DNA of 40,817 bases from a virus. The stretch spans positions 1 to 40,817 of the IMG/VR virus record IMGVR_UViG_3300048592_000709. The stretch is one strand, 5' to 3'. Under the pieces are notes generated by a model. It saw only the letters and a program-made list of their open reading frames with translations. It was not told where the DNA came from and did not search any database. Positions 3,414 through 40,817 of this stretch are shown here, piece by piece; position 1 is the first letter of the stretch; the number at the start of each line of letters is the position of its first letter. A program made the translations under genes and the position numbers.

Positions 3414-3880
3414 GCGATACCTCTCACACCACGCCGCGCTGCACCAAGGCCGCCCGCATCCGCCGCGTGGACGTCGTGTACAGGTACCTGCTCGACGGAC
3501 TCGACACCTCGGACATCATCGAGAGAGTCGGAAAGGAACACGCCGCCTGGGGGGTCAAGGAGCGGGCCATCAAGCAGTACATCCACGACGCTCGCCAGTT
3601 GATCTCAGAGGCCGGAGCGTTTGAGCGGGCGGAGGAGTTCGCGCGGGCAGTCGCCGAGCTGCGCCACCTCTTTCGCAAGGCGCTCGAGAAGGGCGACATC
3701 AACGCCGCCCGACTCGCGCGCAAGGACCTCACCGAGCTCTATGGACTGAACGCCCCGAAGCGCATCGAGATCACCGAGATCCTCGCCCTCGTCGACTCGG
3801 AGATCGCCGAGCGGGAGCAGGAGCTGGCCGACCTGGAGCGTCAGTATGCCCTCCCGCCAGCAGATCGCCCAGGAGATTGA
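3410..3880 (+). CDS. terS: Terminase small subunit
   Basis: A 156-residue protein immediately upstream of and overlapping the large terminase by 35 bases, the usual position for the DNA-recognition subunit of the packaging motor. The N-terminal half (RRVDVVYRYLLDGLDTSDI, then WGVKERAIKQYIHDAR) looks like a helix-turn-helix. The C-terminal half is strongly helical and acidic (DSEIAEREQELADLERQ), fitting oligomerisation and contact with the large subunit. ATG 3410 overlaps the upstream stop and has a GGAGAGG ribosome site. Confidence 0.8.
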   Translation: MSDTSHTTPRCTKAARIRRVDVVYRYLLDGLDTSDIIERVGKEHAAWGVKERAIKQYIHDARQLISEAGAFERAEEFARAVAELRHLFRKALEKGDINAARLARKDLTELYGLNAPKRIEITEILALVDSEIAEREQELADLERQYALPPADRPGD

Positions 3881-5378
3881 GCGCCGGCGCGCTGAGCTTG
3901 ACCAGCTGAGGCGGCGCCGCCGGGACTACATCGACCTCGAGCTGCGCCACGCCGAGGTCTCGCCGCTTCGCCGCTACTTCGACGACCCGTGCGGCTTCGT
4001 CCGCAACGCCTTCTCATGGCGGGACGGGGAGGGACCCTCGCCGTACCAGGCCGAGATCCTGTCGAGCATCCCCGAGCTGCACCGCGTCGCCGCACGTGGC
4101 CCTCACGGCCTCGGCAAGACGGCGATGAACGCCTGGGTCATCCTGTGGTTCGCGCTCACCCGTGACGGCCTCGACTGGAAGGTCATCACCACGGCCAGCG
4201 TCTGGCGCCAGCTCACGGTCTACCTCTGGCCCGAGGTGCACAAGTGGGCACGCAGGCTGCGCCCGAGCGTCATCGGCAGGTCGCCGCTCAGAGACGACGT
4301 CGAGCTGCTCGACCTGGCCATCAAGCTGCGCACCGGGCAGGCCACCGCGGTTGCCTCGAACGACCCGGAGAAGATCGAGGGCGCGCACGCCGACCACATC
4401 CTCTACGTCTTCGACGAGGCGAAGATCATCCCGGCGGCGAGCTTTGATGCGGCAGAGGGCGCGCTGTCGACCGGCGATGCCTACGCGATCGCCTGCTCGA
4501 CGCCGGGCGAGCCCTCGGGCCGCTTCTACGACATCTGCCGGCGCGCCTCCGGGTATGAGGACTGGCATCCCCGCCACGTGACCAAGGCCGAGGCCGTCGA
4601 CGCCGGCCGCGTGAGCGCCGACTGGTGCGAGAAGCGCAAGGCGCAGTGGGGCGAGCAGTCGGCGATCTACCAGAACCGCGTCGAGGGCAACTTCGCCTCA
4701 GCCGACGAGGACTCGGTCATCCCCCTCGCCTGGATAGAGGCGGCGAACGCGCGCTGGGCCCAGTGGAAGGAGTGCCGGGCCGATGCGCCGCTCACCTGCG
4801 TCGGCGTCGACGTCGCCCGCGGCGGCGCCGACAAGACGTACCTTGCGTTGCGCAGCGGGCCGGTCATCACGGAGCTGCGGCCCTATGACTACGCCGACAC
4901 GATGGCAACCACCGGGTCCGTCGTCGGCGTGATGCGCGCCGGTGCCGCGTATGCGGTCGTCGACGTCATCGGCGTCGGCGCCGGCGTCGTCGACCGGCTC
5001 CGCGAACAGGGTTACAACGCCGTCGCTTTCAATGCCGGCGAGCGCAGCGAGGCACTCGACATCTCGGGTGAGCTTGGCTTCCTCAACAAGCGCAGCGCAG
5101 CGTGGTGGGCGATGCGCGAGTTCCTGGACCCGGCCAACGACCCGAAGATCGCGCTGCCAGCCGACGACCTCCTCACCGGCGACCTCACCGCGCCCAAGTG
5201 GCGCGTCACGAGCTCGGGCAAGATCGTCGTCGAGAGCAAGGATGAGATACGCAAGCGCATCGGGCGCTCGACCGACGCCGGCGACGCCGTGATTCAGGCG
5301 TTCTACCTGCCACCGCCGGCGCCGAAGCTGTACCGCGTCGTCGTCGAGGACCCCGGCGGCGACATCAGCCCCATCTGA
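3846..5378 (+). CDS. terL: Terminase large subunit
   Basis: The 510-residue ATPase/nuclease that drives DNA into the prohead. A helical, charged N-terminus (residues 1-35) precedes the ATPase. The Walker A is GPHGLGKT (residues 85-92, Lys91), and the Walker B plus catalytic acid is YVFDEA (Asp190, Glu191). The RNase H-like nuclease begins at VGVDVARGGADKT (Asp322), followed by YAVVDVIGVGAGVVDRL and a C-terminal DAGDAVIQAFY acidic site. The length is typical of the family. The start overlaps terS; ATG 3846 has no strong ribosome site, so translational coupling is likely. Confidence 0.93.
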   Translation: MPSRQQIAQEIERRRAELDQLRRRRRDYIDLELRHAEVSPLRRYFDDPCGFVRNAFSWRDGEGPSPYQAEILSSIPELHRVAARGPHGLGKTAMNAWVILWFALTRDGLDWKVITTASVWRQLTVYLWPEVHKWARRLRPSVIGRSPLRDDVELLDLAIKLRTGQATAVASNDPEKIEGAHADHILYVFDEAKIIPAASFDAAEGALSTGDAYAIACSTPGEPSGRFYDICRRASGYEDWHPRHVTKAEAVDAGRVSADWCEKRKAQWGEQSAIYQNRVEGNFASADEDSVIPLAWIEAANARWAQWKECRADAPLTCVGVDVARGGADKTYLALRSGPVITELRPYDYADTMATTGSVVGVMRAGAAYAVVDVIGVGAGVVDRLREQGYNAVAFNAGERSEALDISGELGFLNKRSAAWWAMREFLDPANDPKIALPADDLLTGDLTAPKWRVTSSGKIVVESKDEIRKRIGRSTDAGDAVIQAFYLPPPAPKLYRVVVEDPGGDISPI

Positions 5379-36055: not shown

Positions 36056-36534
36056 TGAGGCACATGTCCTTCAGCATGACCACCGAGGCGTACCGCGACT
36101 ACTGGAAGGACGTGACCCGCCGGCTCGGCTGGAGCTTCCTCAAGGTCGGCGACGTCTTCATGGGCGTCGAGCAGGCGCAGGGGCTGAAGAAGGGCGAGCA
36201 CGTCGTGCGCCTGCACCCCTCGCGCGTCGTCGCCGAGTTCTGGCAGCCCCTCGAGGCGATCGAGTCCTACCCGAACGAGGGCCGCGACGAGTGCGCCCGC
36301 GAGGCTTTCCCCGGCATGACCGGGCGGGAGTTCGTCGACATGTTCACGGCCGCCAACCGCTGCCGGCGTGACGAGCCGGTCCACCGCATCGAGTTCGAGC
36401 ACGAGTGTCCGGAGTGCGAGGGCAGCGGCATCGGTCGCTTCCCCGAGCGGTACGTCTGCCAGCGCTGCGGCGGCACCGGCTGGGTCAAGGGACGGGCGAT
36501 CACTGAGACATGTGAGGAGGCGATGCAGGAATGA
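36055..36534 (+). CDS. ASCH-like protein with C-terminal zinc finger
   Basis: A 159-residue protein from ATG 36055. Residues about 15-100 (RRLGWSFLKVGDVFMGVEQA, QGLKKGEHVVRLHPSRVV, EAIESYPNEGRDECAREAFP) follow an ASCH/PUA-like order, a fold that binds RNA or modified bases. A DnaJ-type zinc finger follows (HECPECEGSGIGR, YVCQRCGGTGW). It is coupled to the DUF5131 gene, beyond which lies a second ASCH gene. It probably binds nucleic acid; substrate unknown. Confidence 0.68.
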   Translation: MRHMSFSMTTEAYRDYWKDVTRRLGWSFLKVGDVFMGVEQAQGLKKGEHVVRLHPSRVVAEFWQPLEAIESYPNEGRDECAREAFPGMTGREFVDMFTAANRCRRDEPVHRIEFEHECPECEGSGIGRFPERYVCQRCGGTGWVKGRAITETCEEAMQE

Positions 36535-37334
36535 CCCCGACCCTGACCCCAACCGACATCCCCTACCTCACCCACGTCTGGAACGTCGTGACCGGGTGCG
36601 GCGATGAGCAGGCCAGCCCCGGCTGCGCTCACTGCTACGCCCGCGCCATGACCGGGAGGTTCGCCGACGTCTGGGGCTACGACTGGACGCCGACCTTCCA
36701 CGAGGACCGGCTGGAGGCGCCGCTGCACCGCCGCAAGCGGGCCGTCGTGGGCATCACGTTCATGGGCGACCTGTGGCACCGGGCGTTCACGGATGAGCAG
36801 CGCGACGCCGTGTTCGACGTCATCGGCATGACGCCACACATCGTCTACGTCGACCTCACCAAGCGGTCCGCCGAACGGCGGCGGTACATGCGCGAGATGC
36901 GCGTTGACGACCTTGGCCATGAGTATCCGCTGCCCAACCTCGTGACCGGCTCGACCATCTGCAACCAGGCCGAGGCGGACCGCGACATCGGCTACCTGCT
37001 CGACACCCCGTCCGCGTGCCGGATCGTGAGCGTGGAACCGATGCTGGGGCCGGTGGACCTGGACCCGACGTTCCCCGGAAGCATTCACTCGGGCGACTAT
37101 GTCGCTCAACTCGACTGGGTCATCCTCGGCGGCGAGACCGGCCCCGGAGCCCGTCCGATGCAGCCGCAGTGGGCGCTCAGCGTGTATCGGCAGTGTCGCG
37201 AGGCAGGGGTGCCGTTCTTCTTCAAGCAGTGGGGCGGCAAGATCGACGCCGGGGTCAAGGCGGGAACCACGTCTATGCCTGACGAGTGGTCGCGCATGAT
37301 GCGTACCCGCGAGCTGCCGGAGGCGACGCCGTGA
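36531..37334 (+). CDS. DUF5131 (phage Gp37/Gp68, three-Cys) family protein
   Basis: A 267-residue protein of the PF07505-type family. The N-terminus has HVWNVVTGCGDEQASPGCAH then CYARAM, with Cys23, Cys32 and Cys35 forming C-x8-C-x2-C, reminiscent of a radical-SAM cluster motif. Further family blocks: ITFMGDLWHRAFTDEQRDAV, YVDLTKRSAERRRYM, LVTGSTICNQAEADRDIGYL, RIVSVEPMLGPVDL, DWVILGGETGPGARPM and FFFKQWGG. The family's reaction is unknown to me; an iron-sulfur enzyme acting on nucleic acid is an inference. It is enclosed by two ASCH-type genes. Confidence 0.88.
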   Translation: MTPTLTPTDIPYLTHVWNVVTGCGDEQASPGCAHCYARAMTGRFADVWGYDWTPTFHEDRLEAPLHRRKRAVVGITFMGDLWHRAFTDEQRDAVFDVIGMTPHIVYVDLTKRSAERRRYMREMRVDDLGHEYPLPNLVTGSTICNQAEADRDIGYLLDTPSACRIVSVEPMLGPVDLDPTFPGSIHSGDYVAQLDWVILGGETGPGARPMQPQWALSVYRQCREAGVPFFFKQWGGKIDAGVKAGTTSMPDEWSRMMRTRELPEATP

Positions 37335-38396: not shown

Positions 38397-39193
38397 GCAA
38401 GGACGGACGGCCGCCAGAGGAGAAGGGACCGATCTACTACCGCATCAGCCCGAGCGTGTGGGAGCAGGGATGGGACGAGGCGACCGTGCACCTGGCCCTC
38501 TACATCCTGACGAACCAGCACCGGAACACCGAGGGCCTCTTCAAGCTCCCGAAGCTGTACATCATGGACGACCTCGGATGGTCTGCCGAACAGTTGGCCG
38601 AACCGTTCGAGAGACTGTTGACGGAAGGGTTCATCGACTACGACGACGACGCCAAGGTCTGCCTGATTATGAAGGCACTCTACTGGCAGGCGCCGGCCAA
38701 CAGGAACGTCGGGATTGCCGCGATGCGAAGGCTACAGAACGTCCCGAGGAGCCGTCTGGACGCGGAGTTTTCCACAGCTGCGCAACGGTTTGCCGAACCG
38801 TTCGCCAAACAGTTACGCGAACAGTTGCCGGAACGGTTTGGCAAACCCATACCCCTAACCCACCCCCAAACCTCAGCTCTTCTCAGCTCTACTCAGGAAG
38901 AGCATGCGCGCGGGCGCGAGGCGTCGCCAGGAGCGCCGCCCGCGCGCACCAAGAGCGCCAACCAGCACTGCGCATGCGGCGGAGAGCTGCAGTACGACGG
39001 TGACGGGACGGGGAACAAGCACTGCCCTGTGTGTGAGAAGCGGTATCCGGCGCCTGGCGGGCTCGCTATCCCCGCCTCACATCCCGCACAGACGTGCACT
39101 CCTGACGATGGCCCGAAGCGCGTCGGCGCCGTGATCCCCGAGTTCGGTGGGCGGATGCCACGGGACGAAGCCGCGGAGGGTGAGGCCTCGTGA
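38393..39193 (+). CDS. Replication initiation protein (winged-helix, origin-containing)
   Basis: A 266-residue protein from GTG 38393. Residues 12-115 form a winged-helix domain as in phage replication initiators and replisome organisers (YYRISPSVWEQGWDEATVHL, ALYILTNQHRNTEGLFKLPK, ERLLTEGFIDYDDDAKVCLI, NRNVGIAAMRRLQNVPRSRL). A linker holds four-residue repeats (QRFA-EPFA-KQLR-EQLP-ERFG) that arise from the 12-bp iterons in its DNA. The C-terminus has a zinc ribbon (HCACGGELQYDGDG, KHCPVCEKRY). As with lambda O, the gene appears to contain its own origin. No helicase, primase or polymerase is encoded nearby, so it must recruit host machinery. Confidence 0.8.
   Translation: MSKDGRPPEEKGPIYYRISPSVWEQGWDEATVHLALYILTNQHRNTEGLFKLPKLYIMDDLGWSAEQLAEPFERLLTEGFIDYDDDAKVCLIMKALYWQAPANRNVGIAAMRRLQNVPRSRLDAEFSTAAQRFAEPFAKQLREQLPERFGKPIPLTHPQTSALLSSTQEEHARGREASPGAPPARTKSANQHCACGGELQYDGDGTGNKHCPVCEKRYPAPGGLAIPASHPAQTCTPDDGPKRVGAVIPEFGGRMPRDEAAEGEAS
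38589..38619. repeat. Iteron cluster 1: three AACNGTT-type units, 12-bp period
   Basis: AACAGTT at 38589, AACCGTT at 38601, GACTGTT at 38613, exactly 12 bp apart, in the winged-helix-coding part of the initiator gene. The third unit has one change. Weaker companion of the cluster at 38784. Confidence 0.6.
38768..38776. promoter_or_regulatory. DnaA-box-like site beside the iterons
   Basis: TTTTCCACA fits the relaxed DnaA box TTWTNCACA, eight bases before the main iteron cluster. Together they form a plausible origin of replication. Confidence 0.55.
38784..38838. repeat. Iteron cluster 2: five AACNGTT units, 12-bp period (probable origin)
   Basis: AACGGTT 38784, AACCGTT 38796, AACAGTT 38808, AACAGTT 38820, AACGGTT 38832, every unit exactly 12 bp after the last. 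The first two also form an inverted repeat. It is followed by a C/A-rich stretch (38841-38870), strand-skewed and relatively AT-rich for this genome, and by CTCAGCTCT repeats (about 38872-38897). The layout parallels lambda ori inside gene O. Confidence 0.78.
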
Positions 39194-39864: not shown

Positions 39865-40782
39865 GTGACCACCGACACAGACAGCTTCCCGAGCATCACC
39901 TTCCCGGCCACCTTCGAGGGAGCGGCAGGACTCGGCGCCGACTTCTCCGCCACGCTCAAGTTCAAGACCTCGGACGGTCCCACCGTGCTGCGCGACCTGC
40001 ACGCCCTGCCGCGGGGCACCTACGACCTCACGATCGTGAGCCGCCAGGCTGCCCTCGCCGGCGACTCCACTGACCGCGAGTGGGCGAACATGGAGCTGCA
40101 GCAGGTCGGCAGCGAGGGCGGAGAGATCGCGTACGAGCCGCTCTGCATCGGCTCCCGCTGCCCGGTGTTCGCCTGCCACAGCTCGGGCGAGTTCGAAGGC
40201 AAGTACGTCTGCGAGGACGGCGCCGAGACCGAGGTCTACATGGAGGTCCTGTACGGCGAGACGCGCTGCCCGCGCTACGGGGCGGCGGAGGATGAGGCGG
40301 GCGACGCCGAGGCTGCAGCCGACGCGGCTGTTGGCGAAACGGAACACCCGGCGCTGACCGGCGGGCCCCTGAACGAGATGGTCGCCAAGGGGGAGCCCAC
40401 CGGCAAGGGCGCCGTGGTCCTGGTCGTCTACCCGAGCGACGCCGGTGACGCCGACCCGCACGCCACCCCGGTGGGCGAGTTCACGCGGCCCAGCGAGCTG
40501 GTCGCAGACTACCTGGCGGAGGCGCACGTCGAGGAGCCGGTCGCGTTCTACGAGGTTTCATGGAGTGAGGACGCTGGCAGCGTGCTGCTCCCCATGGATG
40601 AGCCGATCCCAGGCGAGTACTACGGACAGACGCTCTACGTCGACCGCCGCGATGACATCGTGAACTGCCCCACCTGTGACGGTGACGGCCGCCAGCCCGA
40701 CAAGAGCGGCGGAGGCCACCACGGCACCTGCAAGACGTGCGGAGGCCTCGGCATGGCGCTGCCGGCCGGGGACGAGGCGTGA
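39865..40782 (+). CDS. Hypothetical protein with C-terminal DnaJ-type zinc finger
   Basis: About 305 residues from GTG 39865, preceded by AGGAGG nine bases upstream; ATG 39841 (ATGA) is an in-frame alternative. A beta-rich N-terminal domain (ATFEGAAGLGADFSATLKFK, YDLTIVSRQAALAGDSTDRE) contains CIGSRCPVFAC with three Cys. An acidic Ala/Glu linker is followed by a second domain (GAVVLVVYPSDAGDADP, AFYEVSWSEDAGSVLLPMDE) and a closing CPTCDGDGRQP ... CKTCGGLGMALP zinc finger. Its end is the sequence repeated at the window start. Function unknown; last gene before the resolvase across the join. Confidence 0.68.
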   Translation: MTTDTDSFPSITFPATFEGAAGLGADFSATLKFKTSDGPTVLRDLHALPRGTYDLTIVSRQAALAGDSTDREWANMELQQVGSEGGEIAYEPLCIGSRCPVFACHSSGEFEGKYVCEDGAETEVYMEVLYGETRCPRYGAAEDEAGDAEAAADAAVGETEHPALTGGPLNEMVAKGEPTGKGAVVLVVYPSDAGDADPHATPVGEFTRPSELVADYLAEAHVEEPVAFYEVSWSEDAGSVLLPMDEPIPGEYYGQTLYVDRRDDIVNCPTCDGDGRQPDKSGGGHHGTCKTCGGLGMALPAGDEA

Positions 40783-40817
40783 CCCACCAACTGGAGATGA
40801 GCGGCGCGGGGCGTCGG
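40687..40817. repeat. Terminal direct repeat, right copy
   Basis: Right-hand copy of the 131-base overlap with the window start. The only difference falls at the base matching the first loop position of a UUCG hairpin (119-138), where the window breaks off. That is a plausible place for a sequencing or assembly error. Removing one copy leaves a circle of about 40,686 bp. Confidence 0.93.
40779..40817 (+). CDS. RuvC-like resolvase, 5' fragment (repeat of 93-131)
   Basis: The first 13 codons of the resolvase gene again, running off the window end. It is the overlap of a circular sequence, not a second gene. Codon 12 differs from the full copy because of the single mismatch (G40813 versus T127). 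Confidence 0.85.
   Translation, partial: MTHQLEMSGAGRR

Follow-up and report, generated by a model that had tools for sequence, protein, structure and literature searches.

The O protein of phage lambda binds both iterons and single strands, and its own gene carries the origin mid-gene, with the iterons followed by an unwinding region (PMC7466680). The SPP1 initiator gp38 (G38P) likewise binds direct repeats within its own gene (oriL), beside an AT-rich unwinding element and with a second site elsewhere (PMC6316719), and the winged-helix initiators of iteron plasmids (RepE/TrfA type; staphylococcal Rep) bind both iterons and a single-stranded DUE (PMC10797057).

Here we analyse a virus record of 40,817 bp and ~70% GC (the window, by which we mean this whole stretch of DNA), in which two short repeat arrays lie within the gene of a predicted initiator. 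The best explanation, which we give a probability of roughly 85%, is that ~38585-38900 constitutes a phage replication origin embedded in its own initiator's gene, binding and origin activity being inferred. The likeness to lambda O and ori-lambda, shared by the Stx phages, lies in an origin placed within the initiator gene and in the succession of iterons and unwinding region. Lambda, however, has four 18-bp iterons at 20-24 bp in one array at ~residues 117-145, whereas the window has 7-bp dyads at 11-12 bp in two arrays as well as a period-6 repeat, and one of its arrays occupies recognition-helix codons, an arrangement not seen in lambda O. Furthermore, lambda O gives no match to the profile of the initiator family at E<=10; with no sequence homology found, and with iteron size, spacing and array number all different, the gene does not qualify for the lambda O family. 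The label lambda-O-like in the preliminary description can hence be kept in the sense of "works like" and not as a statement of kinship; so understood, an intragenic origin of this type appears well supported by comparison, in the absence of data on binding or replication from any family member.

The remaining described systems resemble the locus in part. As in SPP1, repeats inside the initiator's own gene stand beside an unwinding-type element, but the second SPP1 site (oriR) is ~13 kb away, while the window's second array is ~195 bp upstream in the same gene. The Rep protein of Lactococcus phage TP901-1, an experimentally assigned replication protein, is described as a "DnaD-like helicase loader", as is the window's best PHROG; it gives no match to the initiator family profile, its gene shows repeats at a 15-bp lag and no 11/12-bp arrays, and membership of its family by sequence was not found. 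Compared with the iteron plasmids there are only weak fold matches, and the window's iterons differ in lying inside the gene and in being repeated in recognition-helix codons. Geobacillus virus E2 ORF39, QBQ71951.1 of Klebsiella phage ST13-OXA48phi12.4 and WNT46721.1 of Acinetobacter phage A3926.3 are named winged-helix-domain homologues with intragenic 11-bp repeats, their iterons being of other sequence (ATCNATA, AAGNGTT and TTCNAAG, respectively); their annotations read replisome organizer, hypothetical or O protein and mention no array. A literature search found the lambda, SPP1 and plasmid iteron papers and neither "AACNGTT" nor this initiator family; most subscription journals lay outside the search, so a prior description of the family is not excluded.

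Two repeat arrays in a predicted initiator gene

Although not classed as such, the record probably represents the whole genome, mapping as a circle of ~40,686 bp, since an end-to-end comparison finds positions 1-131 and 40687-40817 in agreement over 131 nt with a single mismatch. Genes for a RuvC-like resolvase, integrase, terminase, portal, head and tape measure lie on the left side; the right side has those for exonuclease and RecT along with replication-type genes, a content that identifies the virus as a temperate tailed phage. The replication-side block also encodes, at 36531-37334, a DUF5131 / PHROG 2045 protein of unknown function (Pfam E 3.3e-61). The window ORFs tested include neither a recognised helicase nor a recognised helicase loader, which counts against the origin reading in that the hand-over step lacks an assigned component.

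The product of the array-bearing gene (Table 1) matches PHROG 1701, "DnaD-like helicase loader", with E 2.6e-18, confined to residues 28-118 of the 266; the match stops at profile position 114 of 323, leaving the C-terminal, helicase-loader-type part of the profile unmatched, and the cysteine-rich C-terminus has no Pfam match. The protein weakly matches replication proteins of named phages. Its AlphaFold2 model reaches pLDDT >90 for most of residues 21-150 and places α2 at 54-61, α3 at 65-77 and strands at 81-84 and 89-92, followed by helices up to 149. Fold matches in the PDB are generic winged helices, none of them significant, and include the Rep/initiator structures 5kbj and 4pt7 at E 0.2-0.3; the top viral fold match is "Replisome organizer". 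The PHROG match and the model together bear out the earlier assignment of a winged-helix initiator in the form of a predicted winged-helix phage replication protein. From its fold class, α3 is inferred to be the helix that reads DNA, and in the model array 1 falls exactly within its codons.

Table 1. Coordinates of the features discussed, in the window unless a contig is named
Feature	Coordinates	Strand	Basis or remarks
Initiator / replisome-organizer gene (predicted), 266 aa	38393..39193	+	PHROG 1701 match; AlphaFold2 model
Predicted initiator domains: winged-helix DNA-binding, residues ~20-150; low-confidence linker; cysteine-rich Zn-ribbon-like C-terminus	ORF 38393-39193		
Codons of α3 (residues 65-77), predicted recognition helix	38585..38623	+	AlphaFold2 secondary structure; coordinates from ORF start
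Array 1: AACAGTT 38589, AACCGTT 38601, GACTGTT 38613 (one mismatch)	38589..38619	.	12-bp steps
DnaA-box-like TTTTCCACA	38768..38776	+	Only TTWTNCACA in the window, either strand; role uncertain
Array 2: five exact AACNGTT at 38784, 38796, 38808, 38820, 38832	38784..38838	.	12-bp steps
Strand-asymmetric G-poor stretch, candidate for unwinding	38842..38896	+	34-nt G-free run 38842-38875, then CAGCTC/CTCAG-type repeats
Perfect 12-nt inverted repeat, GC-rich, TGCGCGCGGGCG / CGCCCGCGCGCA	38905..38948	.	20-nt loop
Intergenic AACSGTT arrays	L011 7709-7811; L032 878-944; L058 3814-3928; L063 4006-4071; L023 380-434; L004 3440-3494		

The positions and exact 12-bp steps first reported for both arrays are correct; of the eight AACNGTT copies counted there, seven are exact, the last member of array 1 being GACTGTT, and a more degenerate AAGGGTT follows that array at 38625. 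The seven exact copies are the only ones in the entire window, where 1.55 (sd 1.10) would be expected, and all of them lie inside the initiator ORF. When the gene was resampled synonymously with the protein fixed and with phage codon usage (n=100,000), between 0 and 3 copies appeared (mean ~0.17) and never seven, and for this peptide the seven codon triplets have a joint probability of ~1e-14. In those phage genes that were counted, GAA makes up 12% for Glu, CAA 10% for Gln, AAA 4% for Lys, TTT 3.5% for Phe and TTG 2% for Leu.

Conservation of the repeats as DNA and co-variation of the arrays

A search of viral contigs with the initiator as single query returned no matches, and alignments and DNA patterns were needed; one homologue alignment (A1) was itself too degenerate for genome contigs. 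Scanning IMG/VR for three AACNGTT at 12-bp steps, on DNA letters only and with no protein information, yielded at least 120 loci; an initiator homologue is present in 42 of the 120 listed, and in every one of these 42 the array lies inside the homologue's gene. Reversing the motif (TTGNCAA at 12 bp) likewise yields at least 120 loci, presumably through coding repeats at multiples of three, and the raw number of pattern matches was accordingly discarded as evidence. The informative control is instead the fraction of loci in initiator homologues, which falls to 1 of the 120 listed for the reversed motif and to none of the only three stretches found when the spacing is set to 13 bp. Array-bearing phages and prophages were found in Actinomycetota, Halanaerobium, Nitrospira, Burkholderiales and enterobacteria, the GC content of the array-bearing homologues ranging from ~0.35 to 0.70.

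Across these relatives the same DNA is read in different ways. The window and most other homologues use the codon phase xAA CNG TTx, read as [EQK][RPQL][FL]; four (L013, L008, L059 and L031) use xxA ACN GTT, read as xTV, and parts of L006, L013 and L065 use AAC NGT Txx, read as N-[RGS]-x, with one run in L006 passing through all three phases by way of 11-bp steps. Among the 21 representatives of a protein-selected set that have at least two AACNGTT copies in array 2, 14 use phase 1 only, one phase 2 only, and six are mixed. Selection on DNA rather than peptide is strongly supported by these comparisons, because relatives hold the DNA pattern while reading frame and residues change. The preliminary description had proposed such selection, naming alignment of related initiators as the check and conserved residues without the 12-bp DNA pattern as the refuting outcome; the pattern in fact persists across codon phases 0, 1 and 2, the opposite of that outcome, and the expectation of DNA repeats inside an initiator gene that are conserved as DNA is met.

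For quantitative comparison we assembled 61 representatives less than 80% identical to one another, drawn from a protein-based search with a peptide pattern situated outside the arrays, together with close relatives, bacterial prophage-like loci and named phages. Array 2 in this set contains 3.44 lag-11/12 repeats versus 0.42 in synonymous shuffles. Fewer than two such repeats were found in 26 of the 61, which counts against the reading insofar as a recognisable array is not kept by every relative.

More distant homologues carry two arrays at 11/12-bp steps with other sequences, which are alike in both arrays of one gene. Measured by local score over the 61 representatives, with array 1 taken as the DNA coding α3, array-1/array-2 similarity is 11.58 within a gene versus 8.41 between genes, a contrast attained in 0 of 10,000 permutations and retained in the 39 representatives without an AACNGTT array 2 (10.14 vs. 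8.00; again 0 of 10,000). It likewise exceeds similarity to the upstream and downstream regions of the same gene (7.2; p 6e-7 and 6e-8) and that in synonymous shuffles (11.18 vs. 7.62, p 2.5e-8), and 10 of 31 good matches between the arrays join different codon phases. Variants alike in both arrays include AAGNCTT in L139, AAGNGGC in L131 and L132, TTCNAAG in the Acinetobacter phage (L128) and AAGNGTT in the Klebsiella phage (L124); L225 has the variant GATACCCTAYCGATT. In L202, which is 51% identical in the N-terminal domain and has a similar cysteine-rich tail, array 2 reads AATNATT and array 1 AACNATT, so that the dyad of array 2 is kept with both half-sites changed; this dyad-preserving change from AAC/GTT to AAT/ATT is partly found in L213 as well, both being close relatives. 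The repeats, their DNA-level conservation, the co-variation of the arrays, the anatomy of the locus and its association with the initiator family are direct observations. The preliminary description had included neither the location of array 1 in recognition-helix codons nor the co-variation of iterons between arrays nor the family-wide period-6 repeat described below.

Sequence adjoining the arrays

The strand-skewed stretch noted earlier after the larger array is real: a run of 34 nt without G begins four bases past the last iteron of array 2 and is the longest in the window, the next longest being 20. Throughout the family, array 2 is followed by a period-6 repeat, with a longest lag-6 run of 12.9 versus 6.8 in synonymous shuffles (p ~6e-10) and of 3.9 upstream. 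Here, too, the reading frame is immaterial: some genes translate (CAGGAA)n as QEQE, others as GTGT or TGTG. In the window the repeat is degenerate (AAACCC, ATACCC, CTAACC and CACCCC, followed by CAGCTC/CTCAG units), with an unexceptional lag-6 run. Nevertheless, 30 nt of it (38867-38896) recur identically in L213 in another codon phase, in a gene otherwise ~64% identical. Unwinding-type sequence adjoining the iterons is expected of an origin, and this expectation is met by the G-free run and the family-wide repeat, with the qualification that 38840-38899 is only mildly AT-rich at 45%, which counts against the origin reading.

A GC-rich inverted repeat (Table 1) directly follows the G-poor tract and also occurs in L202 (13 bp) and, imperfectly, in L213. 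The 15-mer of the hairpin loop was considered as a widespread element and rejected: its matches, at least 120, are mostly chance, and the stem is confined to the gene's close group.

Two further proposals fared less well. The DnaA-box-like sequence reported beside the larger array is present, and relatives do not conserve it (found in 2 of 61, with 0.84 expected); this counts against the origin reading, and as a conserved origin part the box is unsupported by relatives. Cumulative GC skew, suggested as a check, reaches its extreme values at 1.7 kb and 21.5 kb with no switch at the array, so that this check fails and likewise counts against the origin reading; the skew is weak and not very informative in a genome of this size.

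A model for the locus and its competitors

Binding, opening, helicase recruitment, origin activity and the role of array 1 are all inferred. In the model we favour, the winged-helix domain of the 266-aa protein would bind the palindromic AACNGTT sites of array 2, one per 12 bp, and the initiator would assemble on them into an O-some-like complex. The G-poor, strand-biased sequence alongside would then open, with the initiator holding one strand, after which the host replicative helicase would be brought in. Array 1 would be a second binding block, most likely serving looping/handcuffing or autoregulation.

Were this correct, the family would offer a sequence-only means of placing origins in many uncharacterised phages and prophages and, through the many occasions on which initiator and target have changed in step, a natural experiment. 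With two arrays of one motif, one of them in recognition-helix codons, it could show how specificity changes when a protein's binding site forms part of its own gene. The hexamer tract, being independent of reading frame, is a candidate for a strand-specific unwinding element and invites comparison with DnaA-trios and the DUE repeats of plasmids. A bolder version remains tentative, and we would not at present back it against its denial: that in a large phage initiator family the recognition-helix codons themselves are a cognate binding block for the protein they encode, jointly with a co-evolving second array and a dedicated strand-biased hexamer unwinding element. If true, one stretch of DNA would hold the reading head together with one of its targets, and a change of specificity would alter both, amounting to a self-encoded recognition code that the second array follows by co-evolution.

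The arrays might instead be operators: by binding there, the protein would repress its own gene or operon or block its transcription, and replication would start elsewhere. Such autoregulation could fall to array 1, which lies near the gene's 5′ part; experimental origin data are lacking, and no turn in GC skew is seen at the array. We nonetheless consider this unlikely, since array 2 and the directly adjoining period-6, strand-biased repeat form, family-wide, the anatomy of an origin (iterons plus unwinding element), the named relatives directly precede a DnaC-like or DnaB-like gene, and arrays found outside the initiator gene also have an AT-rich stretch on one side.

These intergenic arrays, seen in several contigs (Table 1), consist of 5-10 AACSGTT at 11/12-bp steps and stand upstream of an uncharacterised ~264-aa gene, after which L011 has a gene for a large terminase. 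They give some ground for taking the arrays as a packaging or partition site, bound by a terminase small subunit or a ParB-like protein rather than the initiator. Such an explanation seems very improbable to us: wherever a listed locus has an initiator homologue the array is in its gene, the window's own large terminase gene is at 3846-5378, and the L011 contig (20,944 bp; nine AACSGTT at 12 bp beside the AT-rich stretch) also encodes an initiator homologue (L363 1495-2484), several kb from the array and without an internal one. This single case, with a large terminase among the nearby genes, fits an array tied to the initiator protein rather than to the constraint of coding for it.

That the DNA periodicity is merely the by-product of an amphipathic helix built of the tetrapeptide [EQK][RPQ][FL]x, as the predicted helicity of both arrays (AlphaFold2), the fit of a four-residue step to a helical turn and the 14 of 21 AACNGTT relatives restricted to phase 1 might suggest, is largely refuted and hardly tenable, because the synonymous null reaches at most 3 of the 7 sites, the same DNA encodes xTV (phase 2) and NGx (phase 0) in homologues, and the arrays resemble each other more than synonymous shuffles do.

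Exact 12-bp repeats (e.g. CCAACAGTTACT) are also present at L017 8-122, L097 6494-6620 and L050 3568-3694, loci with no initiator homologue; they are probably coding repeats that match the pattern and are not shown to be iterons. A further iteron sequence, TTGNCAA repeated every 12 bp, occurs in the gene of an initiator homologue at L470 512-542.
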